A DNA stretch of 22,066 bases. It comes from a virus. How positions within the stretch are numbered: the stretch's first letter is position 1; each line of letters begins with the position of its first letter. Below are positions 7,369 to 20,639 of this stretch, one piece after another. The translations under genes and the position numbers were made by a program. The notes beneath the pieces are model-generated. The model saw only the letters and a program-made list of their open reading frames with translations, did no database searches and was not told the DNA's origin. The stretch lies in IMG/VR virus record IMGVR_UViG_3300022674_000061, positions 1-22,066 of that record, one strand, 5' to 3'.

Positions 7369-7405
7369 CATGATTTATTTTAACATGTAACATAACCAAT
7401 TTTTT

Positions 7406-7421
7406 GGAACAAAATTTAAAG
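7406..7421 (+). promoter_or_regulatory. GAACAAA promoter-like motif before 7432
   Basis: GGAACAAAATTTAAAG, preceded by a T run as at 13546, sits in the leader of the 7432 gene and overlaps its ribosome site AAAGGAG. One of five intergenic copies. Confidence 0.4.
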
Positions 7422-7431
7422 GAGATTTCAT

Positions 7432-7632
7432 ATGATTGACATTGCGACAATGGGTAAGTTTAGATCCTGTTGTGGAACCAGGTATGGGGGAGGCGGTGCT
7501 CCACCATACAGAACTAATGTTCAAGAGCAAGTGAAACCAGTAGTATTTGTTCGCAATGTTAAGATGAAAACTTTAAATGACACGGATGATTTAATAGAAA
7601 AGATTACAGTAAGATTAAAAGATGATTTATAG
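7432..7632 (+). CDS. Small Gly/Cys protein, 66 aa
   Basis: Unknown 66-residue protein. It has a CCGTRYGGGGAPPYR stretch near residues 13-27, then a basic beta-like segment (KPVVFVRNVKMKTLND) and an acidic/basic C-terminus. Start: AAAGGAG at 7418-7424, in a leader that also carries a GAACAAA promoter-like motif, so this may open a transcription unit with the gene at 7665. An internal ATG at 7450 is a weaker alternative. It ends in TAG; the frame would reach TAA only four codons later, so nothing shows which stop is used. Confidence 0.65.
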   Translation: MIDIATMGKFRSCCGTRYGGGGAPPYRTNVQEQVKPVVFVRNVKMKTLNDTDDLIEKITVRLKDDL

Positions 7633-7664
7633 TGTAGTAATTAACATATGGAGGATCAATAAAA

Positions 7665-8468
7665 ATGTTAAAGTTAAATGTCAATCAAGAGAAGCAATTA
7701 AACTTCGAAATCCAGATTGGCGGAGTTCAAACAGAGCAGGTTCAAAGTCATCTAAGAATTGATATTGATGGCGTCGAATATGGGTTTCCCGCGCACGTAG
7801 GAAATGAATCAATTACTGTTGATCTTCCCCCACTGAGATCAGTTACTGCAAGAAAGTTAAAGGAAGGCGAAGAAGTTAAAGTTAAACTTGAGATTGTAGC
7901 TGATGGTCATTATCTAACACCATGGCAAGATACATTCATGTTATCAAATCCGTTGGTGATTGAAGCGAAAATTGTTGATGATGACTTCAAACCAGCACCT
8001 GCCTTTAAAACAAAACTTGTTTCTAAGGGCGGAACTGGCGACCAATCTCAAGGAGTTATGCTTGAGCAAGTTGAAGAAGAAGAAAAAGATGAAAATCAAC
8101 AAATCAAAGAAAGCGTTTCTTCTGGATCATTAAATGAAGAAGAAATGACTGAAAGACTTGTAAACAAACTTGCAGAAAAACTAGGCGGAATGTTTGAGAA
8201 GGGAAAAACAACAAAAGTAGTAAAAGAAGAAAAACCTGTTACAACAAGTAAAAAAGAAAAAGTTATAAAAGAAGAAAAACCAAAAAGAATTACAAAAGAT
8301 GAAGTTGCCAATATTACAGAAGAAGGCGTGTATGAATACATGTCCAGAGCAGGAACTAAAAATCCAACTGTTCAAAAACTTCTGTATGAACAAGCACAAG
8401 TTGCAGCTGGTTCTTCAAAACCAGTAGATGTTCTAAGACAAGTAGTAAAGTTACTCAAATCTAAATAA
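7665..8468 (+). CDS. Two-part phage protein with charged C-terminal half, 267 aa
   Basis: Family not named. Residues 1-110 form a regular beta-rich domain (LNFEIQIGGVQTEQVQSHLR; VEYGFPAHVGNESITVDLPP; LKEGEEVKVKLEIVADGHYL). Residues about 130-215 are highly charged and probably helical or disordered (EQVEEEEKDENQQIKE; a KKEKVIKEEKPKR stretch). The C-terminal 55 residues look folded and helical (EEGVYEYMSRAGTKNPTVQK). The charged middle recalls phage assembly or scaffold proteins, but this is only inference. Start: GGAGG at 7650-7654, eleven bases before the ATG. It is the last gene before the lysis-like cassette. Confidence 0.75.
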   Translation: MLKLNVNQEKQLNFEIQIGGVQTEQVQSHLRIDIDGVEYGFPAHVGNESITVDLPPLRSVTARKLKEGEEVKVKLEIVADGHYLTPWQDTFMLSNPLVIEAKIVDDDFKPAPAFKTKLVSKGGTGDQSQGVMLEQVEEEEKDENQQIKESVSSGSLNEEEMTERLVNKLAEKLGGMFEKGKTTKVVKEEKPVTTSKKEKVIKEEKPKRITKDEVANITEEGVYEYMSRAGTKNPTVQKLLYEQAQVAAGSSKPVDVLRQVVKLLKSK

Positions 8469-8599
8469 CCGGAGGTGATGATACCTATTGCGCGGATGTA
8501 TTAGATTAATCTGAAGACTTAGACGTAAAACACAAATAAGAAATAATGGTGCAAAAAAATTACCAAATAAATTAAGGCGTAAATAGAGAGAAATGAATA
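8469..8599 (+). other. Intergenic segment with interrupted basic mini-ORF
   Basis: This gap has a strong GGAGGTGATG ribosome-site-like sequence at 8471-8480 but no uninterrupted gene. Reading from TTG 8488 gives LRGCIRLI, then TGA at 8512-8514, then RLRRKTQIRNNGAKKLPNKL and a stop at 8584. From ATG 8480 the frame gives only MIPIARMY. The very basic peptide and the strong ribosome site suggest a small, possibly decayed or recoded, gene. Confidence 0.3.
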
Positions 8600-8926
8600 A
8601 TGAGACGTGCAGACATATTCCGATTAAGGAGAAGCGATCAAGGAACAGAAGGGATTCTTGTTTCTGGGAATTACGATTGTAGAACTCTTGAATTACCCTG
8701 GCGTGATAATCAGAAGCAGATATCTTGTATTCCTCCCGGTGAATATGATGTTGAAATGAGACTTTCAAATAAATATGGTCGAATTTATTGGGTAAGACAA
8801 GTTCCAAATAGGACATATATACTTATTCATTCCGGAAATTATACTGGAGATGTTTCAAAAGGATATAAAAGCCATGTTATGGGTTGTATTCTTTTGGGTA
8901 AAGAAAGTGGTTTTCTTGGAGGATAG
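8600..8926 (+). CDS. DUF5675 family protein, ended early by TAG
   Basis: The 108 residues match the DUF5675 phage family by pattern: RRADIFRLRRSDQGTEGIL, CRTLELPWRDNQKQISCIPP, GEYDVEMRLSNKYGRIYWV, ILIHSGNYTGDVSKG and SHVMGCILLGKESGFLGG. The family is often found in phage lysis regions, but its biochemical role is not settled. The expected C-terminal segment follows directly after the TAG, in the same frame (8927-9019: VAVLNSRITVRAFMEEMDYQ and so on to TAA). The complete protein would be 139 residues, a normal length for the family. Members commonly have glutamine near the TAG position, so a CAG to TAG change or amber readthrough fits. The ribosome site upstream is weak. Confidence 0.8.
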   Translation: MRRADIFRLRRSDQGTEGILVSGNYDCRTLELPWRDNQKQISCIPPGEYDVEMRLSNKYGRIYWVRQVPNRTYILIHSGNYTGDVSKGYKSHVMGCILLGKESGFLGG

Positions 8927-9019
8927 GTTGCAGTTTTAAATTCAAGAATAACAGTTCGAGCATTTATGGAAGAAATGGATTATCAACCATTCAAGTTAAG
9001 AATTCAAGAATCGTTTTAA
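8927..9019 (+). other. In-frame C-terminal continuation of the DUF5675 gene after TAG
   Basis: Thirty codons open in the same frame as the 8600 gene and ending in TAA at 9017-9019. They encode VAVLNSRITVRAFMEEMDYQ and ten more residues, the segment expected at the end of DUF5675 proteins. Either a readthrough extension or the remnant of a recently truncated gene. Confidence 0.7.
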
Positions 9020-9036
9020 ATACGGGAGGTAGAAGA

Positions 9037-9723
9037 ATGATCGGATGGGATGTTATACTCGGTGGAGTAACTGGGTTGATTGGTAATGCATTCACAACCT
9101 GGTTTAAATATAAGAATGCCAAAATGGAAAATGAGCATAAAGAGAACATGGTCAAACTGGAAAGTCAGGCTATGGTTCAAGAAGCTCAAATGCAGATTGA
9201 AGTAACAAAGTCTAGAATTGAAGGTGAAGTTGAATTAGCAGATGCAGCTGCTTTCGATACATCACAGGAAGTTGGCAATCAAAAACTATTCCATGAAAAA
9301 TGGATTGATATGTTAATGGAAGCAGGAAGAACTAAAAAATGGACTGGGTGGATTTATAATTTAATAGGAACATTTATTGCTGCAGCATTTGCATTAGTAG
9401 ATTGGCTGAATGCTGCAATGAGACCATCATTAACTATTTATCTTGTTGCATCTTCAAGCTACATTACATATCTTGCATGGCAGATAATGCAACAAGCTGG
9501 TTTAGATGCAATGACAGCAACACAAGCAGTTGGTATTTTTAATCAGGTGACATCAACAATGATTTTCTTGGCAGTTTCTGCTGTAACGTGGTGGTTTGGC
9601 GACAGAACAATGTCTAAATATTTACAACAGAAAGATGCAAGAGATAGCAGAACTTCATCAAGTCCTTCAGGCAAACCTGGTATTAAACCAAAACCAGGGG
9701 GAGCTGGCGATGTTGATATTTAG
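9037..9723 (+). CDS. Holin-like phage membrane protein, 228 aa
   Basis: Probable inner-membrane protein. Residues 1-20 are hydrophobic (IGWDVILGGVTGLIGNAFTT); residues about 25-85 are charged and helical (KNAKMENEHKENMVKLESQA). Two or three further membrane segments follow: about 107-126 (IYNLIGTFIAAAFALVDWLN), 130-150 (LTIYLVASSSYITYLAWQIM) and 171-190 (TSTMIFLAVSAVTWWFGDRT). The C-terminus is hydrophilic with GKPGIKPKPGG. Start: ATACGGGAGG before the ATG at 9037. Its place between DUF5675 and a spanin-like gene suggests a lysis role such as a holin; this is inference. The TAG stop overlaps the start of the next gene. Confidence 0.75.
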   Translation: MIGWDVILGGVTGLIGNAFTTWFKYKNAKMENEHKENMVKLESQAMVQEAQMQIEVTKSRIEGEVELADAAAFDTSQEVGNQKLFHEKWIDMLMEAGRTKKWTGWIYNLIGTFIAAAFALVDWLNAAMRPSLTIYLVASSSYITYLAWQIMQQAGLDAMTATQAVGIFNQVTSTMIFLAVSAVTWWFGDRTMSKYLQQKDARDSRTSSSPSGKPGIKPKPGGAGDVDI

Positions 9724-10183
9724 GAGAAAAGAACCTGAAAAACCAAAACCTTTTTATGTAAGACAGCCAATTGCAACTGTTGCAGTTGTTCTAACGATGA
9801 TTGGTATGTTTGTCTTGGGTCCAATTGGTATAATATACAATGGGATGACAGAAGAACTTAAACACAAAGTAGATAACCAGACACTTCAATTAATGTTGAA
9901 AAATCAACAAACATTAATTGAACAAAACAAAGCTGAAGCTGAACGTAAAAGAGAAGAAGATGCTAAAAAATTTGAGGATCTTCAAAGGACTCAACAGAGA
10001 ACATTGGAGACTATTCAGAATCTACAAATGCAACGCCCTGCTCAAACACAGCAATCTCCAACATCTACACCTCAACCTGTTGTAACAAAAGAAGTATTTG
10101 AGTACTATTTAACTTTAACACCTGACCAAAAAAGAGCATTTAAAAAATTAAGTCCCGCTTTTCAAGTTTTACCAGATCCTTAA
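9710..10183 (+). CDS. Spanin-like protein: one membrane segment plus coiled coil, 157 aa
   Basis: The ATG at 9710 was chosen because it lies 14 bases inside the upstream gene, gives a clean N-terminus (MLIFRRKEPEKPKPFYVRQP) and places a positive-inside membrane helix at residues about 21-44 (IATVAVVLTMIGMFVLGPIG). Residues about 48-110 form a charged Gln/Glu/Lys-rich coiled coil. They are followed by a Pro/Thr/Gln linker (PAQTQQSPTSTPQP) and a small folded end (EVFEYYLTLTPDQKRAFKKL). This layout resembles Rz-type inner-membrane spanins, with the coiled coil in the periplasm, but no sequence family is recognised and no outer lipoprotein partner is seen. Confidence 0.7.
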   Translation: MLIFRRKEPEKPKPFYVRQPIATVAVVLTMIGMFVLGPIGIIYNGMTEELKHKVDNQTLQLMLKNQQTLIEQNKAEAERKREEDAKKFEDLQRTQQRTLETIQNLQMQRPAQTQQSPTSTPQPVVTKEVFEYYLTLTPDQKRAFKKLSPAFQVLPDP

Positions 10184-10198
10184 TAGAAAGGGAAGTAC

Positions 10199-10765
10199 AT
10201 GGATTTTAAAGAGAAGGTTATTGAGTTATTAGAAACTAATATGACAGAAAAAGGATTTGCTTTATGGAAAGGTATTGATAAAATCTTACCTGATGCTTGG
10301 AGCAAACCAACTTCATCAACAGGAAAATATCACAAAAAACTAAATGGAGATGTTCCAAACCAAGGGGAACACATTTATCATTTAGCATATTCAACTGTCA
10401 AGTTATTCAGGATGTTTGACATAAAAGCAAAAACTCCTGATGCAGATAAAATGTTATTTGCTGTTGTTCTCCATGATGCATTAAAATATGGTCCGCACGG
10501 TACTAGAAAACATACTGATTACCAACATGATAAAAAAGCAGCAGATATGGTATCTGAAAACAAAGAAACATTTCAAAAGATAATGACAGAGGAACAATTT
10601 TTTGTATTAGAAGAAGCGATAAGATTTCATTCTGGAAGATGGAGTACTGATGTTCCAAAACGCCAGAAATTTTCCTTTAAAGATTATAACCCAGAAACCT
10701 TCTTTCTTCATATGTTAGATATGATGAGTACTGCTGATTTAATTCAAACAGACGTGAGGGAGTAA
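10199..10765 (+). CDS. HD-domain phosphohydrolase-like protein, 188 aa
   Basis: Likely metal-dependent phosphohydrolase of the HD superfamily. Visible ligands are His58 or His61 (GEHIYHLAY), the His92-Asp93 pair (VVLHDALKYGPHG), His110-Asp111 (DYQHDKKAAD), His144 (AIRFHSGRW) and Asp174 or Asp180 (LHMLDMMSTADLI). This is the full pattern expected of an active HD fold. The substrate cannot be told; HD proteins act on nucleotides or phosphodiesters. Start: ATG 10199, with GAAAGGGAAG a few bases upstream. It lies between the lysis-like cassette and baseplate genes and is close-packed with the next gene (3-base gap), so it is probably late-transcribed. Confidence 0.85.
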   Translation: MDFKEKVIELLETNMTEKGFALWKGIDKILPDAWSKPTSSTGKYHKKLNGDVPNQGEHIYHLAYSTVKLFRMFDIKAKTPDADKMLFAVVLHDALKYGPHGTRKHTDYQHDKKAADMVSENKETFQKIMTEEQFFVLEEAIRFHSGRWSTDVPKRQKFSFKDYNPETFFLHMLDMMSTADLIQTDVRE

Positions 10766-10768
10766 TGA

Positions 10769-11425
10769 ATGGCTACAGTTTTAACATCATATTCACTTGT
10801 TCCAGAATTACAACACTGGTTCAACCATTTCGTTATAAACTCGAAAGTCAATAAATATCGAGTTCCCCCTCCTGTAGATATTCCGCCGTTATACCTTGGT
10901 GAAAATTCATTTATCGATATGCTTTTTAATGACTCCTATTCGCATAAAGATTATGAATATCGATACACCCAACAAACAAATCCTTTGTGTATTCCAAGGC
11001 AAGTGTTTATGCGTTTACAGATATATCCCGGTTCATCACAATATCTTGTTCTTGATCCGAATGGTTCTAATGTTTTCAATTTACAAGCTGATGACTTTGC
11101 AACTTTAGATGCTCTTCTTGCATATAGAAATTACGATTCAACTGCTCTAACGATTATAGATTCAACTGCGGTTCAGTTTGTTGGAGATTCAACTGCTGGA
11201 GTTTTTATTCTTTATGCATCATTGAATAGTCTTTCAACAGAGTTATCTAAAATGATCTATCTGTATTTGATGTTGAAAAGATATAATGTGTTTCAACCGT
11301 ATAATAATAATTCTTTGGTTTCATCTGGAGGACTTTTAGAAACGTGCTATGAGTCCTATCTAATTGATCAATATTTCTGTTTTATGATAGAACGTAAACC
11401 AGATTTGCTTTATAACTGTACTTAA
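10769..11425 (+). CDS. Probable tail/baseplate protein, 218 aa
   Basis: Unknown 218-residue protein rich in Tyr, Leu, Asn and Ser, starting MATVLTSYSLVPELQHWFNH. It precedes the baseplate gene by 11 bases and reads as part of the same tail module. Residues about 122-146 contain three DSTA units (YDSTALTIIDSTAVQFVGDS), encoded by three copies of GATTCAACTGC at 11135, 11159 and 11186. A near copy of this segment occurs near the end of the 11437 protein. No signal peptide or membrane segment. Start: GAGGGAG at 10757-10763, overlapping the upstream stop. Confidence 0.75.
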   Translation: MATVLTSYSLVPELQHWFNHFVINSKVNKYRVPPPVDIPPLYLGENSFIDMLFNDSYSHKDYEYRYTQQTNPLCIPRQVFMRLQIYPGSSQYLVLDPNGSNVFNLQADDFATLDALLAYRNYDSTALTIIDSTAVQFVGDSTAGVFILYASLNSLSTELSKMIYLYLMLKRYNVFQPYNNNSLVSSGGLLETCYESYLIDQYFCFMIERKPDLLYNCT

Positions 11426-11436
11426 AGGGAGATACG

Positions 11437-13455
11437 ATGGCGTATAATATTAATAAATTTTGGGAGATCCTTGAAGAGATTCAAAGTGGTACTGGTGATC
11501 TTACCGAAGCTGTGAAAGCTATTGCAAAGAATGAGCAAGCTTCAGCTAATAGATTTATTGAATTAGTAATTGACCAGATTTCCTATAACACTCCCGATTG
11601 GCAAAGATTAAGAAGATTCTTTAGAGATTGGTATGCCTCTCATAGGACTTTGACTACATTTCAATCAAATATATCTGATGTCTATCAGATGCCAAATGAT
11701 CAATTAGATGAGTTGTTTAGAAGTTTTGGGTATAACTATTCATCATCACTTAGAAATCCTGTAACAAACGAAGCCCCTTTAAATAAGGTAAATTTCTTTT
11801 TAGATCTTGTAAACCTTTATAAAAGGAAAGGTACTCCACAAGGTCTAGTTGATGTTCTTCAATATTATGGAATAACAGATGTTGATATTTATGAACTACA
11901 GCTTCAATTTGATGATCGTGTTTTAAAAGATTCGACTGATCTAATTTTTAAAGGTAGGGTTGCAGCAGGTACGACTGGTGATCTTACTCCTATTTATTTA
12001 GCATTCAATTTTCTTACTGACAGAGATCCCCATTGGTTACAAACTGAAAGTCAAATTAGACAACTATATAATTTAAATAAAATTAATTTTCCTTCACAAT
12101 CTCCATACTTTGCAGTTAAACCCTTGTTTGATGAAGAAGCTACAGATGCTGCAACTGGTATTTTAACAAGGCAGATTCAAAATCAATATACTACTTGGGA
12201 TAATGCCGGGCAACCTGATGAAGGAACAATTGCAGTACTTCCACAAAACGCTGTAATATCAATTCTTGGAGAGACTGTATCAGTATTAACTCTATATCTT
12301 TCAACCATATATACGTTCAATAAGGAGTTCACAGTAGGTGCTCCTGCGAGTCGTTTTATATGTTATGATGGAACTAATACAGTTGCTGCTGATATTATTG
12401 ATGAGTTCAGAACTTTAACTGAACAAAAATTAACAAGTCGTGCTCAACAGAAAGCTAACTGGATTCAATATCTTGATTTGTTTAGTAGAGTAATCAGTCT
12501 CAATTTTCTACAGTCTCATGAAGATGGCGGAGACTATCTTGCAATATTACATCCATCAGTAAAAACAGCTCTTGATAACCTTGCGACTGATAATATTTCA
12601 GTTCTTGGTTCACTTTTAAATGATCTTGGTGAATGGGTAAGAAACAATATAAGTTATGGCTTCATTAATATGAGTTATATCTTATTTGGTCTTGAATCTC
12701 TATTTGGAAATCTGAAGGATGTAATTGAATTTTTCAAACCATACAGAGCTAGAATTGTTCCTCTTGAAACAATTCAATTTACCAATAGATTGTTCAACTC
12801 TATTATTGTTGAAGATAGTTTCTCTTTTGATGCAAATATTGATGTTCATGATTTTATTACAGGAGATAGTATTCCGTGTTGCACAGAACAAGGGATTGAT
12901 TCTACAACTCCTGTATGTTTAGATGCAACAGCAACTAATTACTTTTATAGCCGTGAAACATACGACTGTGGTTCATGGCATGATATTGGTGCTGTTACTG
13001 ATTTACCTCAAGAATTGTTTATTGAAATTCAAGATTCAATTTATGATTCTATGAGATGTCCTTCATTTTATGGCAATGATATGACAGCCATAAGTGAAGT
13101 TATTGTAACCTCAGAAATAATTGAAACCCCAGTTGACTCTACTTCTCTTATTATTGATTCTACTGCTGTACCATTTTCTCAATATTATCAATCAGGTGGC
13201 TTCGAAAACTTTGATGGTGTTTTGGCATGGGACGGAACATCATATGTTCAAGAACGTCAATGGGATGGAACCGCATATGTTTATGTAAATACAGGGGTTC
13301 CACTATATATAGCTGTAGAAGATACACAAGGACGATTTGATTGCACACACGGTTTTGATTTAGTTCAAATTGAAGTTATCTACCAACTATCTTATCTGCT
13401 TCAAGAAAATGGAGATTATCTATTACAAGAAAATGGTGATAGAATAATTATCTAA
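11437..13455 (+). CDS. Baseplate protein with tail-protein-I-like domain, 672 aa
   Basis: Probable baseplate wedge component. The segment at residues about 125-150 (FLDLVNLYKRKGTPQGLVDV, then LQYYGITDVDIYE) matches the RKGTP-x-x-L-x-x-x-L pattern of phage tail protein I/baseplate families. Residues 1-110 are helical (RLRRFFRDWYASHRT), residues 150-450 are mixed, and the C-terminal 200 residues are beta-rich with Cys-containing segments (SIPCCTEQ; TYDCGSWHDIG). Near the end lie a DSTSLIIDSTAVPF segment shared with the 10769 protein, a WDGT[SA]YV duplication and a tandem YLLQENGD repeat. Start: AAGGGAGA before ATG 11437. Exact T4 counterpart not assigned. Confidence 0.8.
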   Translation: MAYNINKFWEILEEIQSGTGDLTEAVKAIAKNEQASANRFIELVIDQISYNTPDWQRLRRFFRDWYASHRTLTTFQSNISDVYQMPNDQLDELFRSFGYNYSSSLRNPVTNEAPLNKVNFFLDLVNLYKRKGTPQGLVDVLQYYGITDVDIYELQLQFDDRVLKDSTDLIFKGRVAAGTTGDLTPIYLAFNFLTDRDPHWLQTESQIRQLYNLNKINFPSQSPYFAVKPLFDEEATDAATGILTRQIQNQYTTWDNAGQPDEGTIAVLPQNAVISILGETVSVLTLYLSTIYTFNKEFTVGAPASRFICYDGTNTVAADIIDEFRTLTEQKLTSRAQQKANWIQYLDLFSRVISLNFLQSHEDGGDYLAILHPSVKTALDNLATDNISVLGSLLNDLGEWVRNNISYGFINMSYILFGLESLFGNLKDVIEFFKPYRARIVPLETIQFTNRLFNSIIVEDSFSFDANIDVHDFITGDSIPCCTEQGIDSTTPVCLDATATNYFYSRETYDCGSWHDIGAVTDLPQELFIEIQDSIYDSMRCPSFYGNDMTAISEVIVTSEIIETPVDSTSLIIDSTAVPFSQYYQSGGFENFDGVLAWDGTSYVQERQWDGTAYVYVNTGVPLYIAVEDTQGRFDCTHGFDLVQIEVIYQLSYLLQENGDYLLQENGDRIII

Positions 13456-13591
13456 CCCCACCTAAGATTCCAACTATATCCTGCGTTTAAAACTAATAAA
13501 CAGTTAATATACTTATAGATTTTAAGCATACAACCTTACTTTTTTAGAACAAAAAAATAAAGGCAGCTAATTCATTTTATGGAGATAGTAT
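13456..13591 (+). promoter_or_regulatory. Leader/promoter region of the phosphoesterase gene
   Basis: Non-coding gap with an AT-rich centre, ending in the promoter-like motif AGAACAAAAAAATAAAGG at 13546-13563 and the ribosome site GGAG at 13581-13584. A TATACT hexamer at 13508-13513 lacks a convincing partner. No terminator is seen after the baseplate gene, so readthrough is possible. Confidence 0.4.
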
Positions 13592-14512
13592 ATGTCAGCA
13601 TACAAGAATGAGATTCAGAAGCTAGCAGATACAACCCTATTAACTAACAAAGAAATTGCTAAAATTGTCGGATGTTCTGAAAGAACAGTTAGAGCATATG
13701 CAGGTTCTTATGTAGCAAGATGTCAAGCAAAAACAGCACAAGAAAATCAAGACCCCTTTCAAATTCAAAAAGTAGTAATCCTTCCTGATATTCACTACCC
13801 ACATTATGAACAGAGAGTTATGGATGCAGTCGATGAGTTTATCATTGATTATGAACCAGACGAACTTGTTTATATGGGTGATCAAATTTCTTTAGATTGT
13901 ATTTCATTTTGGAATAAAAGAAAACCTCTTTTAAAAGAAGGCCAAAGACTTTTAGATGATTTTGATGGATTTAATGAATCTGTATTATTGAACCATGAAA
14001 ACATTACATCTCCAGAAATAAAAAGAACATTCATGATTGGCAATCATGAATACAGATTAACATTATATGCTCAAGAACATCCAGAGTTAGCTGGATTCGT
14101 TGACATTGAAAGACATTTGAATCTTATAGATCGTGGTTATAAAATTGTTCCATTCAATGAAATCCATAAGGTTGGAAAACTGAGTGTTATTCATGGATAC
14201 TATTGGAATAAGTATCATGCAGCAAAAACACTTGAGGCTTTTGAAGGCAATGTTGTTTATTCACATGTTCATAACCCTCAAATGTATGCAAAGGTTTCTC
14301 CTGTTGATAGAAAGGGTTATCATACTGCTACCTCGCTTCCATGTTTATGTAATATCAAACCAGATTATCACAAGAATGCTCCAAATTTTTGGATTAATGG
14401 TTTTGGTATTGTAGAATATCTTCCAGCAACAGGTTTCTTTAATCTATATACAATCATTATTATTGAAGGATCTTTTATGTTCAATGGTAAATATTATGGA
14501 AAGAAATTATAA
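13592..14512 (+). CDS. Helix-turn-helix plus calcineurin-like metallophosphoesterase, 306 aa
   Basis: N-terminal helix-turn-helix at residues about 14-38 (LLTNKEIAKIVGCSERTVRA), joined to a calcineurin-type phosphoesterase. Metal-site motifs are all present: Asp66 and His68 (PDIHYPH), Asp97 (YMGDQ), Asn151-His152 (IGNHEYR), His201 (SVIHGYYW) and His225-x-His227 (YSHVHNP). The protein should therefore be a two-metal phosphodiesterase or phosphatase, possibly acting on nucleic acid because of the DNA-binding head (inference). The last 30 residues are hydrophobic (FNLYTIIIIEGSFMFNGKYY). Start: TGGAGAT at 13580-13586. It is a single gene with its own leader, ahead of a reversed island. Confidence 0.9.
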   Translation: MSAYKNEIQKLADTTLLTNKEIAKIVGCSERTVRAYAGSYVARCQAKTAQENQDPFQIQKVVILPDIHYPHYEQRVMDAVDEFIIDYEPDELVYMGDQISLDCISFWNKRKPLLKEGQRLLDDFDGFNESVLLNHENITSPEIKRTFMIGNHEYRLTLYAQEHPELAGFVDIERHLNLIDRGYKIVPFNEIHKVGKLSVIHGYYWNKYHAAKTLEAFEGNVVYSHVHNPQMYAKVSPVDRKGYHTATSLPCLCNIKPDYHKNAPNFWINGFGIVEYLPATGFFNLYTIIIIEGSFMFNGKYYGKKL

Positions 14513-14549
14513 ACCAGGCACAGGCGGGGGACCACCCGTTACAATTTAG

Positions 14550-14595
14550 AAAAAAAATGCTAGGGGTAAAGTGTGATCATCACAATACCCCCAGC
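14550..14595 (-). terminator. Intrinsic terminator of the reversed island
   Basis: Read on the minus strand, stems GCT/AGC and GGGGTA/TACCCC, with one mismatch, enclose an inner GTGA/TCAC hairpin and are followed by A then eight T. There is no T run on the plus-strand side, so it acts on transcripts from the tRNA, the three-way-junction RNA and the 14826 gene. Confidence 0.8.
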
Positions 14596-14675
14596 ACCAA
14601 CAGGTTTGCAGAGCGTTTCACTATCCGCTGCGAACGGCCTTCATGACGTTGCCTAACTGCTGGCAAATTGGTTTT
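14596..14675 (-). ncRNA. Structured transcript between tRNA and terminator
   Basis: Non-coding stretch lying on the same minus transcript as the tRNA. It can form a TTGCC/GGCAA hairpin (14649-14666) and a GC-rich GCAG...CTGC hairpin around 14608-14632. No known RNA family is recognised; it may simply be the trailer of the tRNA transcript. Confidence 0.3.
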
Positions 14676-14748
14676 GCCGGGAGGGGGATTCGAACACCCC
14701 ATCGACCTAGAGCGGACCCTAGCTGCTCTACCGTTAAGCTACCCCGGC
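14676..14748 (-). tRNA. tRNA with atypical anticodon arm (anticodon uncertain, CCG best fit)
   Basis: A 73-base minus-strand cloverleaf. The acceptor stem GCCGGGG pairs with TCCCGGC (one G-T pair), the D arm is GCTT-AACGGTA-GAGC, and the T arm carries TTCGAAT with a GGGG(T)G/CCCCC stem containing one bulged T. No CCA is encoded. The anticodon arm is odd: CTAGG/TCTAG leaves a six-base loop GTCCGC, or a four-pair stem leaves an eight-base loop GGTCCGCT. U33 would be followed by CCG (arginine), but position 37 would be a C. The gene may be a decayed or specialised tRNA. Confidence 0.6.
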
Positions 14749-14751
14749 TTA

Positions 14752-14826
14752 GGAGAAGGGTTGCCATTACTGGGACAAGGGCCAAACGCAACCTGCTCGG
14801 TATCCTCCACCAGCATATGCTTCTCC
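14752..14826 (-). ncRNA. 75-base three-way-junction RNA beside the tRNA
   Basis: On the minus strand a 7-bp closing stem GGAGAAG/CTTCTCC encloses two hairpins: TGCTGGT/ACC(G)AGCA with a GGAGGAT loop, and GGTTGC/GCAACC placed directly against the closing stem. Length and closing stem are tRNA-like, but there is no TTCRA T loop. It begins at the last base of the upstream gene's TAG and ends three bases before the tRNA. Family unknown. Confidence 0.4.
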
Positions 14827-15167
14827 TAAAATAAGACTTCCACTCTCTTTCCAGAATTCATGTCTGCCAGAACAACAGAGTTTTTCCGCATGAACATCAC
14901 CTTCTTGTCCCCGACGATCTTATGTGGAATGCCAGGATCAATCATGTCAGTTCTTTGACCAATCGGAAAACCTTTGATCTCTTGAACAGTGAATCCTGCG
15001 ATAGATACAGGTTCGGAAGTAATGTTGTTGAATTCTAGATCTTCATCTGGGATAAAGTTACAAGGGCCTGCATACTTGTGACAAATATCACAAGATCCCT
15101 TCACCTTATCCTCGTTTGAATGAATCCTGTATTCCCTTGTCTTTGCACAACTATCACAGTATAGCAT
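14826..15167 (-). CDS. Small zinc-ribbon protein, 113 aa
   Basis: Unknown 113-residue protein with an N-terminal zinc-ribbon-like pattern: Cys4-x2-Cys7 (YCDSC) and Cys26-x2-Cys29 (SCDIC), followed by a mostly beta-type domain (GFTVQEIKGFPIGQRTDMID; KKVMFMRKNSVVLADMNSGK). It probably binds one zinc ion; the function is unknown. Start: GAGAGG upstream of the ATG at 15165-15167. It begins two bases after the stop of the membrane protein gene, so the two form an operon. The TAG stop is probably real, because the same frame runs on into the structured RNA and tRNA. Confidence 0.75.
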   Translation of the reverse strand: MLYCDSCAKTREYRIHSNEDKVKGSCDICHKYAGPCNFIPDEDLEFNNITSEPVSIAGFTVQEIKGFPIGQRTDMIDPGIPHKIVGDKKVMFMRKNSVVLADMNSGKRVEVLF

Positions 15168-15169
15168 AA

Positions 15170-15391
15170 TTACCTCTCTTTAGTTAATATAGTTCGTAGT
15201 ATTCGAAATTGTTTATCAGCATTGAATCCAAGAGTATAGCCAACTAAAATTAAAATTGCTGTAAGTACTAACATTTTTACATTGAAATTAATGAATGTTA
15301 CTATACCTACTACTATAGCAGCTCCGATATACAAACCTGCCAAACATGATGAAAGCATGAAATTCCATAATATCTTTTCTTTATCGCTCAT
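15170..15391 (-). CDS. Small two-helix membrane protein, 73 aa
   Basis: Small membrane protein with two predicted helices, residues about 8-35 (WNFMLSSCLAGLYIGAAIVV onward) and about 39-57 (KMLVLTAILILVGYTLGF), and a basic C-terminus (RILRTILTKER). Start ATG 15391 was chosen over ATG 15454 because a very strong GGGGGAGGAGGG lies just upstream. No family recognised. The hairpin-like topology would suit a holin, antiholin or superinfection-exclusion peptide, but nothing in the sequence decides this. First gene of the reversed island. Confidence 0.6.
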   Translation of the reverse strand: MSDKEKILWNFMLSSCLAGLYIGAAIVVGIVTFINFNVKMLVLTAILILVGYTLGFNADKQFRILRTILTKER

Positions 15392-15409
15392 ACCCTCCTC
15401 CCCCACTTT

Positions 15410-15438
15410 ATAATAAAAAAATAGATTCCCTTCGCCAA
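15410..15438 (-). promoter_or_regulatory. Possible sigma70-type promoter of the reversed island
   Basis: On the minus strand TTGGCG (15433-15438) and TATTAT (15410-15415) are separated by 17 bases, directly upstream of the ATG at 15391. The -10 matches 5 of 6 consensus bases and the -35 matches 4 of 6. It would give a very short leader holding only the ribosome site. Confidence 0.35.
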
Positions 15439-15481
15439 AGTTTTCTTCTATCACTAATTAATATATATAGAATATCATTTA

Positions 15482-15500
15482 AAAAATGAGAACAAATAAA
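15482..15500 (+). promoter_or_regulatory. GAACAAA promoter-like motif before HNH gene
   Basis: TGAGAACAAATAAATATG runs directly into the ATG of the HNH gene and leaves no room for a ribosome binding site. One of five copies of the motif GAACAAA plus A/T-rich tail seen in intergenic positions of this window. Confidence 0.4.
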
Positions 15501-15501
15501 T

Positions 15502-16017
15502 ATGAGATTGTGTAAATGTGGTTGTGGGCAACCAATAGAAATTAAACCGTGGCATAAACATCGTGGGACACCTTCGTATATAAAAGGTCACTATTGGAAT
15601 GGGAAGAAAAGAGCAAAAGAAACAAATCAAAAAGTAAGCGAAGGAAATAAAGGACGAACTTGTTTTTGGAAGGGAAAGAAACGACCTAAACATAGTAAAT
15701 GGATGATGAAAAACTGTCAAGGAGATACTCATCCAGCATGGAAAGGCGGTCTTTCATGTGAACCATATTGTGATGTGTGGCAAGACAAAGACTATAAAGA
15801 ATCAATAAAGAAACGAGATGGATATAAATGTTTAAATCCTGATTGTCAAAATATTTCATGTCGTCTAACATTACATCATATCAATTATAATAAAAAGGAC
15901 TGTTCTCATAAGAATTTAATAACTCTTTGTTTAAGTTGTAATGGAAGAGCTAATGCAGATAGAGAATGGAATGAAAGTTGGTATCTGGCAATATTACATA
16001 GGAGATATGGTTATTAA
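15502..16017 (+). CDS. HNH homing endonuclease, 171 aa
   Basis: Free-standing HNH endonuclease. The N-terminus has a Cys-rich motif (LCKCGCGQPIEIK) and repeated Gly/Lys-rich DNA-binding-type segments (YIKGHYWNGKKRAKET; CFWKGKKRPKHSKWM; GDTHPAWKGG, NUMOD-like). The catalytic domain occupies about residues 105-165: KRDGYKCLNPDC, LTLHHINYNKKDCSHKNLIT, LCLSCNGRANADREW, giving the expected His-His, Asn and zinc-ligand Cys pairs. No ribosome site precedes the ATG; a promoter-like motif abuts it instead. A second motif copy follows the stop, so the gene is bracketed by similar sequences. Likely acts by cutting an allele lacking it. Codons are more A-rich than the neighbours. Confidence 0.9.
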   Translation: MRLCKCGCGQPIEIKPWHKHRGTPSYIKGHYWNGKKRAKETNQKVSEGNKGRTCFWKGKKRPKHSKWMMKNCQGDTHPAWKGGLSCEPYCDVWQDKDYKESIKKRDGYKCLNPDCQNISCRLTLHHINYNKKDCSHKNLITLCLSCNGRANADREWNESWYLAILHRRYGY

Positions 16018-16117
16018 ATAAGAACAAATTAAATGAAACGCCACACGATAGTACCAATCGACTTTAAACTAAAAAAAATTGAGGTCTTAGTCGATGACCT
16101 GTAAAGGAGAAACTATC
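16018..16117 (+). promoter_or_regulatory. Structured leader of the polyhistidine/zinc-ribbon gene
   Basis: It begins with the promoter-like motif AAGAACAAATTAAATG (16019-16034). Two pairings compete or interlock just before the ribosome site GGAG (16105-16108): ATCGACT (16057-16063) with AGTCGAT (16089-16095), and AGGTC (16082-16086) with GACCT (16096-16100). AAACGCCACACGAT (16036-16049) also pairs, with one mismatch, with 16961-16974 after the gene. Confidence 0.5.
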
Positions 16118-16951
16118 ATGACATACAAAGACAATTTCGTAGTAGAAGTAAAATGTAACGGTAAAATCCTGAGAGTTAGAGATGGTGCTGTTCACCTACC
16201 TTTCGGAAGTGAGTATTCAATCCTTCTAAAAAATCTAAATTCAAGACGAGCTTCTGTCAAAGTTCACGTTGATGGCCAAGACGCTCTTGATTACAGTTCG
16301 TTGATTTTAGGTTCAAATGAAACAACAGAACTTCAAGGATTTCTTAGTGGGAATGTTGCAAGAAACAGATTTAAGTTTATTCACAAGACAAAACAGATTC
16401 AAGACCATAGAGGTGATAGAGTTGATGATGGATTAGTTCGTGTTGAATTTGCTTTTGAAAAAGAAGTTGAAACAATCAAAACAATTCTTACAGAACATCA
16501 TCACCATCACCATCATCATAGAAATGAACATATATATCACCACTGGAATTATAACGATTGGTTTAATGGTAATTCATCTGCAAAATATGGTTCAGCAGAT
16601 AATGTAAGATCTGTATTTTCAAATAATGCATCTGATATTGTTGGATGTGCTGGAAACACTCAAAGTTCAAATATGGTTCAAGTTGAATCTCTTGGTGTTG
16701 AATCACAGCCATTATCTGATGAAGGAATTACAGTTAAAGGGTCAGAATGTAACCAGGAATTTCGCTATGCTTCTATTGGGGCACTTGAACAATCTAAAGT
16801 CATTACAATTCAATTGAAGGGAATTACAGAAAACCAAGCTCAAGTAACTGCTCCTGTAACTGTTCAAACAAAACTAGAATGTAAAACTTGTGGAACAAAA
16901 TCTAAATCATCTTTTAAATATTGTCCTAATTGTGGGACATATCTAGAATAA
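16118..16951 (+). CDS. Phage protein with natural 8-His run and C-terminal zinc ribbon, 277 aa
   Basis: The start at 16118 (GGAGAAACTATC then ATG) is preferred over the in-frame ATG at 16094. The N-terminal 125 residues form a beta domain (VVEVKCNGKILRVRDGAVHL; PFGSEYSILLKNLNSRRASV). A run of eight histidines follows near residues 128-135, then RNEHIYHHW, a Ser/Asn linker, a second beta segment, and a C-terminal zinc ribbon (ECKTCGTKSKSSFKYCPNCG, two CxxC pairs). Function unknown. The His run and zinc ribbon suggest metal binding. The gene is a one-gene unit with its own leader, strong terminator and flanking inverted repeats. It is probably an accessory cassette, not a core virion gene. Confidence 0.8.
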   Translation: MTYKDNFVVEVKCNGKILRVRDGAVHLPFGSEYSILLKNLNSRRASVKVHVDGQDALDYSSLILGSNETTELQGFLSGNVARNRFKFIHKTKQIQDHRGDRVDDGLVRVEFAFEKEVETIKTILTEHHHHHHHHRNEHIYHHWNYNDWFNGNSSAKYGSADNVRSVFSNNASDIVGCAGNTQSSNMVQVESLGVESQPLSDEGITVKGSECNQEFRYASIGALEQSKVITIQLKGITENQAQVTAPVTVQTKLECKTCGTKSKSSFKYCPNCGTYLE

Positions 16952-16979
16952 TGAAATAAAATCGTGTGGGGTTTTATGC

Positions 16980-17038
16980 GAGGGCGTTAGTATAGCATTG
17001 ACATTCGGTAGCTCATGTTTGCTAACGCCCTCTTTTTT
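16980..17038 (+). terminator. Strong intrinsic terminator
   Basis: An 11-bp perfect stem GAGGGCGTTAG (16980-16990) and CTAACGCCCTC (17022-17032) with a 31-base loop, followed by six T. It ends the 16118 unit. There is no T run for the minus direction. Confidence 0.9.
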
Positions 17039-17071
17039 ACGTCGATTTCAGATCCAAACCTTCCACATTCT

Positions 17072-17089
17072 AAGAACAAAATATAAAGT
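17072..17089 (+). promoter_or_regulatory. GAACAAA promoter-like motif before virion gene
   Basis: AAGAACAAAATATAAAGT lies between the terminator at 17038 and the start at 17120, a position where a promoter is needed. It matches the motif at 7406, 13546, 15487 and 16019. Confidence 0.5.
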
Positions 17090-17119: not shown

Positions 17120-17797
17120 ATGGAAAAGAAAATTGAGACAATAGAAGTTGTTGCTAAGGATGTTTATGGTGACAATTGTTTAAACGATCAGTTTGGTTCT
17201 GGTAGAAGAGCCAACGATGGGAAGCCAGAAGGGTTCGTTGAGATTTATGAGGTGGATGAATCTGGCAACAAAAAATTAGTGGGGAAATCAAATTTAGTTC
17301 TTTATATTGGACGTGAATGGTTAGCTCAAAGATTTGTAAATATTGACAATCCAAATGTTTCCTCAACCAAGGATCAATTTTTAAGTTGGTTCGGTTTGGG
17401 CGATGGCGGTGTTATTCCAGGAAATCCTTTAAACCCAGCCCCACCAACTCTTTTAGATACTGAACTGAACAATCCAATTATGATTACTGATGCTACTTCG
17501 GTTGCAGCAGATTATAGAAGCTCCCCTGTAGCTGGTTTTTACAAAATCCCCTTTGATTCAATTGAGTTTGAACAGGACGCTTTAAATGATGATAAATGGT
17601 TAGTTCTAAAAGTTACCACAACCGTTGCCGCTAGTTACGCAAATGGCACTCAAATAAGCGAAGCTGGTTTATATGCTTCTACAAGTACAGTTGGTGGCTT
17701 TGGAGGACCATTTGTTATTTTCTCAAGGGTGACCTTCCCATCCATTGTAAAAACGGAAGATAGACGATTAATTTTTTCATGGTTCTTGTATGTATAA
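17120..17797 (+). CDS. Probable virion structural protein upstream of tail sheath, 225 aa
   Basis: Unknown 225-residue phage protein. The start at 17120 is preferred over ATG 17090 because the latter overlaps the promoter-like motif, while AAAAGG lies ten bases before 17120. Segments KKLVGKSNLVLYIGREWLAQ, FLSWFGLGDGGVIPGNPLNP and GTQISEAGLYASTSTVGGFG, then FVIFSRVTFPSIVKTEDRRL, resemble small tail or baseplate proteins that carry a 'REW...GxG' pattern (inference). The C-terminus FSWFLYV ends at TAA, sharing one base with the ATG of the HNH gene. Before that insertion it was probably adjacent to the sheath gene. Confidence 0.75.
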   Translation: MEKKIETIEVVAKDVYGDNCLNDQFGSGRRANDGKPEGFVEIYEVDESGNKKLVGKSNLVLYIGREWLAQRFVNIDNPNVSSTKDQFLSWFGLGDGGVIPGNPLNPAPPTLLDTELNNPIMITDATSVAADYRSSPVAGFYKIPFDSIEFEQDALNDDKWLVLKVTTTVAASYANGTQISEAGLYASTSTVGGFGGPFVIFSRVTFPSIVKTEDRRLIFSWFLYV

Positions 17798-18687
17798 TGA
17801 AATGTTTAATCTGTAATCAAACTGTTAAGAATTTTAGAAGTTTACAAAAGCATGTTTTTTATCAGCATAATCTTAAAAGTAAAGAATATTATGATAATTA
17901 TTTGAAGTTAAAACATGAAGGTTTTTGTTTGATTTGTAATAAGGTCACGAATTATATAAACATAAACCAGGGATATCATGATTATTGCTCGATAAAATGT
18001 CAAAGTAAAGATCATAGTATCATTAAAAAAAGAGTTTCTAAGACATCAGGAAAAAATCATTGGATGTCTAAAAATAATGGTAATCCAAATAGAGGAAAAA
18101 AATACGAAGAAATTCATGGAGTTGAAAAAGCGAATTTGTTAAAGAAAAAGCTTTCAGATATATTTCATAATAATTTTTGTGGTGATAAAAACTCATTTTT
18201 TGGAAAACACCATACATCAGAAACTAGATTTTTACTTAGTTTAAAAAGAAAAGGGAAAACATATGAGGAGATTTTTGGATTAGAAAAAGCGAAATATTTA
18301 AGGGATGTTAAGAAGAAAGAACCTTCTTGTTCATTTCAGGATGCTGATCAGTATAATTTTAGATTTTATGATCTTAACTTAAGAAAAAAGATTCTAAAAG
18401 AACAATATGATTTTTGTCCAATATGTTTTTGTAAATTAGAAAAAAGGAAGAATTTACATCATATAAATTATGTAAAAAAAGACAATAGAAGAAGAAATTT
18501 GATCTATCTATGTATACCTTGCCATGCAACAACAAATGGTAATAGAGATTTTTGGAAAGCGTATCTAAAAACAATAAATAGAGAAATATTAAAAAATGAA
18601 AAATTTTCAAGGAGATTAGTATTACAGGTTGAAAGAAATTTAAGCATAGATAATCGACAAAATATTTTAAGTAGGAGGATACGCTAA
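17797..18687 (+). CDS. HNH homing endonuclease with zinc finger and NUMOD-like repeats, 296 aa
   Basis: Start taken at ATG 17797, overlapping the upstream TAA by one base; ATG 17779 would intrude into that gene. Layout: C2H2-type zinc finger at residues 3-24 (Cys3, Cys6, His19, His24); a second Cys cluster (CLICNKVTNY; DYCSIKCQSKDH); NUMOD3-like segments (GKNHWMSKNNGNPNRGK; GDKNSFFGKHHTSETR); a repeated [GK]K[KT]YEEI[HF]G[VL]EKA module seen twice; and a C-terminal HNH domain (DFCPICFCKLEKRKNLHHIN; LCIPCHATTNGNRDFW). It is A/T-rich and Lys-rich, unlike the structural neighbours. Its last codons contain the sheath ribosome site and its TAA shares a base with the sheath ATG. Free-standing, intron-type endonuclease. 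Confidence 0.9.
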   Translation: MKCLICNQTVKNFRSLQKHVFYQHNLKSKEYYDNYLKLKHEGFCLICNKVTNYININQGYHDYCSIKCQSKDHSIIKKRVSKTSGKNHWMSKNNGNPNRGKKYEEIHGVEKANLLKKKLSDIFHNNFCGDKNSFFGKHHTSETRFLLSLKRKGKTYEEIFGLEKAKYLRDVKKKEPSCSFQDADQYNFRFYDLNLRKKILKEQYDFCPICFCKLEKRKNLHHINYVKKDNRRRNLIYLCIPCHATTNGNRDFWKAYLKTINREILKNEKFSRRLVLQVERNLSIDNRQNILSRRIR

Positions 18688-20639
18688 TGGCAGCAAATGT
18701 CTCGCCTGGAGTTTTTTCAAAAATAATAGATTTATCTCAATTCGTCCAAGCGGTTCCATCAACAATCGGATTTATTGCAGCTCTGACTGAAAAAGGAGAA
18801 GACAACACTCTCAAATTTATCGGATCAAGAGCTGATTTGATTTCCGAATTTGGTGAACCAAATATTGCGACTTATGGAAAGTATTATGGCCAAGGCCCAT
18901 ACTGTGCTTACAACTATTTAGGAGAATCTGGTTCTCTATATTTCATGAGAGTATTACCTGATAATGCTACTTATGCAAATATGAGAATTGATGCAACAGT
19001 ACAGGCTGGCGACTCAACCGCAGGTATGCAAATTACATTTGTTGAAGGTATGAACGATACAGATGAATTGCAATCAAATTTACAACAAGATGGCACTGCA
19101 TTTCCAGTGTGTTTCTTATATCCAATCGGAAGAGGACAATGGTATAACAGACTTGGTATAAGATTAACGGAGGTTGCTAATCCAACCCTCTGGGATCAGT
19201 ATATTCTTGACATCTATGAAAGACAATCAGATGGGGATGATGCGATTATAGAATCATTTGATGTGTCATTCTTAAAAACAGCACAAGATAGCGCTGGAGA
19301 ATCAATCTGGATTGTTGATGTCTTGAATACATATTCATCAGTATTGAGAGCAGAAGCATATATTGATGAAGATACAGATAGATTTTCTGCTGGTTATGAT
19401 GAAGTTGTCAGAGTATATGACAAAGACATTGATACAAATATTACTGCAACAATTACACCTGGTGCTGCTGATCTTACAGATATCAAGCAGGACTTCTCTG
19501 AATGGGAAGGTGCTGGCAGTGGAGATTATATTATTGTTGTAAAAGATGCTAGAGGAAATGAAATTTGGGGCTGGTGTGGACCAGCAGCAGGTTTTGATGA
19601 TGATACTATCACTGTGTTTGCAGAGAAATCATTATCAACTCAAGCATGGAATGGAAATACAGCAGATTTTGATCCAACTACTGATATGGAATATCGTATC
19701 AAGAAAGGTTATGCTAACCTTGCATCAGCCTTTGCATCATCTGATCCTGTACCACTAAGAAAAGGAAGTGATGGCGATCTTCTACAGGCTGATGGAACTC
19801 TAGATCAAACTGAAGCAACAACACTTCTAAATCAAGCGTACAGTGGTATCATTGACGATACAGTTCTTGATAATGAAAATGTTTACTTCTCAATGGTTTT
19901 CGATTGTGGTTATCCATCAGATGTTAAGACAGCTATCAGCACATTATGTCAAACCAGACGTGACTGTGTTGGTATCATGGATAACGGTGACAATGCAACA
20001 GTTAATCTTGCTCTTGCAACAAGAAATAATACTAACACATTTAACAATTACTTTGTTGCATTGTACGAATCATATAATAAAGTTTTCGATTCATTTACAG
20101 GACAAGATGTTTGGTTCTCACCAATCTACCACATGTCCTACATTCTACCAAGAAACGATACTGTAGCTGAACTTTGGTTTGCAGCTGCTGGTTTCAATAG
20201 AGCAGCAATTGATACAATTAAGGAACTTCGTTACAATCCTCGTCTTGGCGAGAGAGATCAGCTATACTTTAAACAACTAAACCCGATTGTGAAATTCAAT
20301 CCTGGTTATGTTGTTTGGGGTCAGTTGACATCTCAAGCCAGAGCAAGTGCTCTTCAAGATTTGAACATTGTAAGACTTGTTCTATACATCAAGAGAGCAT
20401 TTGAAGACTTCTGTCGTTTCTTCATCTTTGAACAGAATGATCCAATTACTTGGGCACAGGTTTCAAGTAGATTGGTTGAATTCCTTGAAGAGATCAAAAA
20501 GAAACGTGGTCTTACAAACTACTCAGTTTCAGTTGGTGCAACAGACTACGAGAGACGTACTAAGAGATTCCACGTAGACGTAACTCTAGAACCAACCAGA
20601 ACTGTTGAACAGATTGAACTGAACTTCTTCATCGTTTAA
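18687..20639 (+). CDS. Contractile tail sheath protein, 650 aa
   Basis: Clear T4 gp18-type sheath subunit, which polymerises around the tail tube and contracts at infection. Residues 1-100 contain the sheath N-terminus (NVSPGVFSKIIDLSQFVQAV; STIGFIAALTEKGEDNTLKF; GESGSLYFMRVLPDNATY). The middle carries a variable insertion with a beta domain (residues about 105-330). The C-terminal core is characteristic: YNPRLGERDQLYFKQLNPIV, GYVVWGQLTSQARASALQDL, IVRLVLYIKRAFEDFCRFFI, FEQNDPITWAQVSSRLVEFL and TKRFHVDVTLEPTRTVEQIE. Length is typical. Start: AGGAGG at 18673-18678, inside the HNH gene. A terminator follows ten bases after the stop. The tube gene, usually next, is not here, because a reversed operon follows. 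Confidence 0.97.
   Translation: MAANVSPGVFSKIIDLSQFVQAVPSTIGFIAALTEKGEDNTLKFIGSRADLISEFGEPNIATYGKYYGQGPYCAYNYLGESGSLYFMRVLPDNATYANMRIDATVQAGDSTAGMQITFVEGMNDTDELQSNLQQDGTAFPVCFLYPIGRGQWYNRLGIRLTEVANPTLWDQYILDIYERQSDGDDAIIESFDVSFLKTAQDSAGESIWIVDVLNTYSSVLRAEAYIDEDTDRFSAGYDEVVRVYDKDIDTNITATITPGAADLTDIKQDFSEWEGAGSGDYIIVVKDARGNEIWGWCGPAAGFDDDTITVFAEKSLSTQAWNGNTADFDPTTDMEYRIKKGYANLASAFASSDPVPLRKGSDGDLLQADGTLDQTEATTLLNQAYSGIIDDTVLDNENVYFSMVFDCGYPSDVKTAISTLCQTRRDCVGIMDNGDNATVNLALATRNNTNTFNNYFVALYESYNKVFDSFTGQDVWFSPIYHMSYILPRNDTVAELWFAAAGFNRAAIDTIKELRYNPRLGERDQLYFKQLNPIVKFNPGYVVWGQLTSQARASALQDLNIVRLVLYIKRAFEDFCRFFIFEQNDPITWAQVSSRLVEFLEEIKKKRGLTNYSVSVGATDYERRTKRFHVDVTLEPTRTVEQIELNFFIV

Follow-up and report, generated by a model that had tools for sequence, protein, structure and literature searches.

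A motif that begins with GAACAAA and ends with TAAAG recurs on the plus strand of an uncultured virus contig, IMG/VR record IMGVR_UViG_3300022674_000061, of which we analysed the whole 22,066-nt stretch (hereafter the window). The original prediction took the motif for a candidate phage late promoter, perhaps used by a phage-specific sigma factor or polymerase and similar in its A/T part to the late promoter of T4. What does the motif do, and what reads it?

The motif in the window and in its relatives

All five predicted motif strings were found on the plus strand, the fourth beginning at 16020 rather than 16019. They had been assigned to intergenic leaders; this was not strictly so for the string at 15490, which lacks TAAA and overlaps the ATG of an HNH gene (15502). 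A pattern search for GAACAAA-N1-5-TAAA gave 5 matches in the window versus 0.33 expected, and 0 of 100 shuffles reached 5. The fifth match, at 16893, was located within the zinc-ribbon gene and encodes a conserved peptide. Bare GAACAAA showed no enrichment: the window had 9 copies, versus 6.5 expected. The sites, scored with a PWM fitted on other contigs, and the features next to them were as follows.

7403..7420, plus strand: candidate late-type promoter site TTTGGAACAAAATTTAAA, followed after 11 nt by the ORF at 7432 (PWM 16.0; pattern search)
13543..13561, plus strand: candidate late-type promoter site TTTAGAACAAAAAAATAAA, before a metallophosphoesterase gene at 13592 (PWM 18.7; pattern search)
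15489..15504, plus strand: AGAACAAATAAATATG, a weaker late-type site that overlaps the HNH start codon (read from the sequence)
16018..16035, plus strand: late-type site ATAAGAACAAATTAAATG of the zinc-ribbon gene (PWM 11.4), its GAACA kept in about 45 relatives
16980..17032, plus strand: inverted repeat GAGGGCGTTAG...CTAACGCCCTC followed by a T-run, terminator-like, directly before the next late site (read from the sequence)
17070..17087, plus strand: candidate late-type promoter site CTAAGAACAAAATATAAA, upstream of the 17120 gene (PWM 17.4)
17120..17797, plus strand: putative virion structural gene, the first gene 3' of the conserved candidate promoter (PHROG 5417 / 19418)
18687..20639, plus strand: tail sheath gene (PHROG tail sheath, E=4e-75), the query for relatives

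Site AGAACAAATAAATATG scored below the PWM listing threshold of 8 and was an exact fit to the AACA-6N-TA of phage AR9. Elsewhere in the window, a tail-fibre-like protein (400-1860) carried hundreds of residues in GSSGTSG-type repeats, and a tRNA-Arg (CCG) was found on the minus strand (14675-14748).

With the tail sheath gene as the query, we retrieved 80 IMG/VR loci that were 62-84% identical; in the annotated phage collection, none reached 60% identity to this gene. Upstream of the homologue of the 17120 gene, the site was present in 68 of the 68 loci with enough sequence. Among 46 non-redundant sequences of this region, AGAACAAA was invariant and AATATAAA was 85-100% conserved, with most flanking columns at 35-60%; the TATAAA part was more variable than the AGAACAAA core. 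This site is, on strong evidence, a conserved footprint. A C-x-AA element located 16-19 nt upstream of AGAACA before this homologue was 89-96% conserved in the relatives and was absent before the sites at 7407 and 13547.

The motif was not equally common within genes, as judged by its placement in 82 loci: 133 of 167 matches lay between genes, and 91% of the sequence was coding. The shorter pattern AGAACA(A/T)A was intergenic in 208 of 352 cases in 862 kb of relatives, of which 9% was intergenic, and 206 of the 208 were on the strand of the sheath gene. Between genes it was 3.9- to 9-fold enriched in three long contigs. Motif matches were mostly found 15-40 nt upstream of gene starts, on the gene strand.

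Analysis of k-mer enrichment in upstream regions identified two motifs besides ribosome-binding sites, which were refined by EM to TtTAGAACAAAAtAtAAA and TTAATATATATAG; when EM was begun from weak or random seeds, its output was either unclear or consisted of ribosome-binding and start-codon signals. Scanning a 223-kb contig with a matrix fitted to other contigs gave 23 late sites at score 14, versus 2.9 expected from shuffles. These sites preceded the genes for the major head protein, HNH endonucleases and others, and a late site together with an early-type site was located upstream of the DNA polymerase gene. Twelve further contigs with a gp226-like gene (see below) contained 151 motif matches versus 47 for the reversed pattern.

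Many phages rely on host RNA polymerase (RNAP) for part of their transcription, and TATAAA is close to TATAAT, so the motif could be a sigma-70-type promoter with TATAAA as its -10 box. We consider this very unlikely: it was AGAACAAA, not TATAAA, that was invariant, the -35 position (17 nt upstream of TATAAA) was among the least conserved columns, and the relatives carry RNAPs of their own.

The early-type element and the zinc-ribbon leader

The second motif, TTAATATATATAG, was enriched in upstream regions and occurred in tandem with the late motif. It is AT-rich and resembles the AR9 early promoter AAATATATATTAT (PMC5312081). In the window, where 0.01 occurrences were expected by chance, one was found, close to the following features.

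15451..15470, plus strand: TCACTAATTAATATATATAG, the sole early-type element of the window (PWM 21.9)
15502..16017, plus strand: HNH endonuclease gene (PHROG HNH, E=8e-4)
16057..16100, plus strand: leader with two interleaved covarying helices (16057-16063/16089-16095 and 16082-16086/16096-16100), directly 5' of the Shine-Dalgarno sequence
16112..16951, plus strand: zinc-ribbon gene (Pfam zinc ribbon, under the curated cut-off)

Upstream of the zinc-ribbon gene, most relatives had TTAATATATATAG followed by GAACA after 3-4 bases, and others had a slightly wider gap. Comparison of these upstream regions indicated that in the window the HNH gene is inserted between an early-type and a late-type element, which in most relatives stand side by side; a similar coding stretch was located ahead of the site in locus L065. 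In AR9, the late consensus is AACA-6N-TA/G, the early consensus is AAATATATATTAT-6N-G, and both precede continuously expressed genes (PMC5312081). The pairing of early and late elements would be the anatomy expected from this scheme. If the AR9 spacing applied, transcription from the late site of the HNH gene itself would begin at the ATG and yield an mRNA without a leader.

The ORF list placed the start of the zinc-ribbon gene at 16094, and the Shine-Dalgarno sequence AAAGGAG indicated the ATG at 16112. In the window and 39 relatives, 100% of 480 cells in the two leader helices were paired, with 68 double changes, and 0 of 500 shuffles were equal to this; the leader had no match in Rfam. The leader may control translation, by way of either a pseudoknot or two alternative hairpins, in a manner comparable to the leader of T4 gene 32. 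A pseudoknot with both full helices was considered; there are no nucleotides between the two 3' strands, so that both full helices probably do not form at once.

RNA polymerases, the gp226-like subunit and the DNA base

The RNAP and gp226-like genes were located in relatives, not in the 22-kb contig. The 223-kb relative, the longest one bearing the sheath gene, contained two beta and two beta' genes. The AR9 non-virion subunits best matched one of these RNAP pairs, and the virion-type subunits of AR9 and phiR1-37 matched the other. Both RNAPs of this relative had unsplit beta and beta', unlike those described for AR9 and phiKZ. The 223-kb relative encodes both beta and beta' and a Gp23-type capsid, as do the uncultured mReC contigs, which came partly from IMG/VR (capsid PF07068; PMC7481178). 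The clade carrying the motif is likely the mReC lineage; promoters and sigma-like subunits go unmentioned in the mReC paper.

AR9 gp226 matched one 492-codon ORF of the 223-kb contig and the orthologous ORF of a second contig (phmmer, E=1e-4). An hhalign comparison of gp226 with the gp226-like profile gave P of about 2e-5 and, with 25 orthologues, covered 164 columns including the V206 region. A first structure model from 3 sequences reached pLDDT 45 and was set aside; the model used was built from 25 sequences (pLDDT 77). Its best Foldseek matches in the PDB, and the only significant ones, were AR9 gp226 and phiKZ gp68 (E 5.6e-5 to 6e-4; next match 0.9), both sigma-like subunits of non-virion RNAPs; global TM-scores were low (0.34-0.42), leaving the domain placement uncertain. 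In a viral structure library, matches ranked 1-13 included the jumbo phages Noxifer, Ea35-70, RP12 and Eowyn. PDB sequence searches with the protein and its profiles returned nothing relevant, and a profile search over the whole AR9, phiR1-37 and phiKZ records returned nothing. Because these direct searches were empty, the homology rests on phmmer against the ORFs of the clade itself, hhalign and fold.

V206 is the AR9 gp226 residue that excludes thymine (PMC9209446). At this position, 28 of 28 clade loci had F or Y, once S, and the 8 known homologues aligned all had V. No clade arginine aligned with the pocket arginine R363, in an alignment that is weak here. These two differences suggest that the mechanism of promoter reading may differ from that of AR9.

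The gp226-like gene adjoined the virion-type RNAP rather than the non-virion one: in the 223-kb contig, 1.1 kb separated it from the virion-type beta' gene, and in the second contig the two genes were also close together. This placement would suit a promoter that is read by the virion-type RNAP with the gp226-like subunit, leaving the AT-rich motif to something else. Such an assignment is nevertheless very improbable, as the homologous subunit of AR9 and phiKZ belongs to the non-virion RNAP (PMC9209446, PMC7598289), and early promoters of the AR9 type are AT-rich, like the second motif.

AR9 uses uracil on its template strand (UUGU), and we looked for genes bearing on the base used in the clade. 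A thymidylate-synthase-family gene was present in the 223-, 244-, 248- and 277-kb contigs, four of the five longest; the 203-kb contig was without it and had a dUTPase. Searches found no thymidylate synthase in AR9 and no dUTPase in AR9 or phiR1-37. The distribution of the gene suggests that the DNA of the clade probably contains thymine or a modified base rather than uracil, a modified base being possible because the family includes hydroxymethylases. Tentatively, and with the odds somewhat against it, the clade may have kept the AR9-like template-strand reading of AACA/TTGT in thymine or modified-pyrimidine DNA by means of a subunit in which an aromatic residue replaces the uracil-selecting valine; on this reading, its unsplit RNAP subunits may retain the form that preceded the splitting of jumbo-phage RNAPs.

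The probable reading and comparison with known systems

We propose, with a probability of about 0.75, that TtTAGAACAAAAtAtAAA serves as the late promoter in a clade of jumbo phages that encode RNAPs, and that it is read by the non-virion RNAP with the gp226-like subunit, and that the virion RNAP reads TTAATATATATAG early. The non-virion RNAP with this subunit would melt the DNA and read the AACA core as TTGT on the template strand, like the UUGU of AR9, and transcription would start roughly 7-12 nt downstream of AACA. The AT-rich TTAATATATATAG element would be read early by the virion RNAP, and genes preceded by both would, as in AR9, be expressed throughout infection. Points against this proposal are the missing fixed 6-nt spacer of AR9, the place of the gp226-like gene beside the virion-type RNAP, the differences at V206 and R363, and the location of the RNAP and gp226-like genes in relatives. 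In outline, this agrees with the phage-specific late promoter and phage polymerase originally predicted, given the footprint, the gene-strand bias, the two RNAPs and the gp226/gp68-type subunit in the relatives; the T4 likeness was not upheld.

The motif could instead be a conserved DNA or RNA signal other than a promoter, for example one for packaging, replication or mRNA processing, since any protein-binding site could be conserved this strictly and promoter function is deduced from comparison. We regard this as very unlikely: the motif is strand-specific and precedes many genes that are unrelated to one another, with a spacing suited to a short leader that includes a Shine-Dalgarno sequence; moreover, one site follows the terminator-like repeat at 16980-17032, and the motif occurs in tandem with an early-promoter-like element. 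The least probable reading is a T4-type late promoter, TATAAATA, used by host RNAP with a gp55-like sigma factor: the phage has a contractile tail with a sheath, a relative has a Gp23-type capsid and the TATAAA part is, like the short T4 element near -10, AT-rich, but the TATAAATA octamer was not the consensus, the conserved AGAACAAA core, which sets the clade apart from T4, lay upstream of it, and a search of six contigs for sigma-70 region 2 (PF04542) gave no match, a weak argument in that gp55 itself is divergent from that model. The T4-type and sigma-70-type readings were both rejected on consensus and spacing.

The comparison thus yields a candidate late promoter class and its probable reader in an uncultured group found in many metagenomes. 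The choice that gp226-type subunits make between uracil and thymine becomes open to testing, and operons and gene timing can be predicted for genomes without a cultured host.

Among known systems, phiKZ shares a phage-encoded multisubunit RNAP and a sigma-like subunit homologous by fold (PMC7598289, PMC12809450). Its late promoter consists only of TATG at the start site, which is read by a beta-like subunit and not by gp68 (PMC7598289, PMC12809450); the clade motif is longer. The late promoter of AR9/PBS1 (PMC5312081, PMC9209446) shares with the clade the AACA core on the non-template strand, an AT-rich early class and genes with both elements, as well as, in the relatives, a gp226-family subunit and two multisubunit RNAPs. 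The clade differs from AR9/PBS1 in its longer consensus, TtTAGAACAAAAtAtAAA, and in lacking a fixed 6-nt spacer before TA/G, the spacing to TA being variable; AACA-6N-TA/G was 2.6-fold enriched between genes in AR9 and 0.8-1.2-fold in the clade. It differs also in having F/Y at V206, unsplit beta and beta' and a thymidylate-synthase-family gene, of which AR9 has none.
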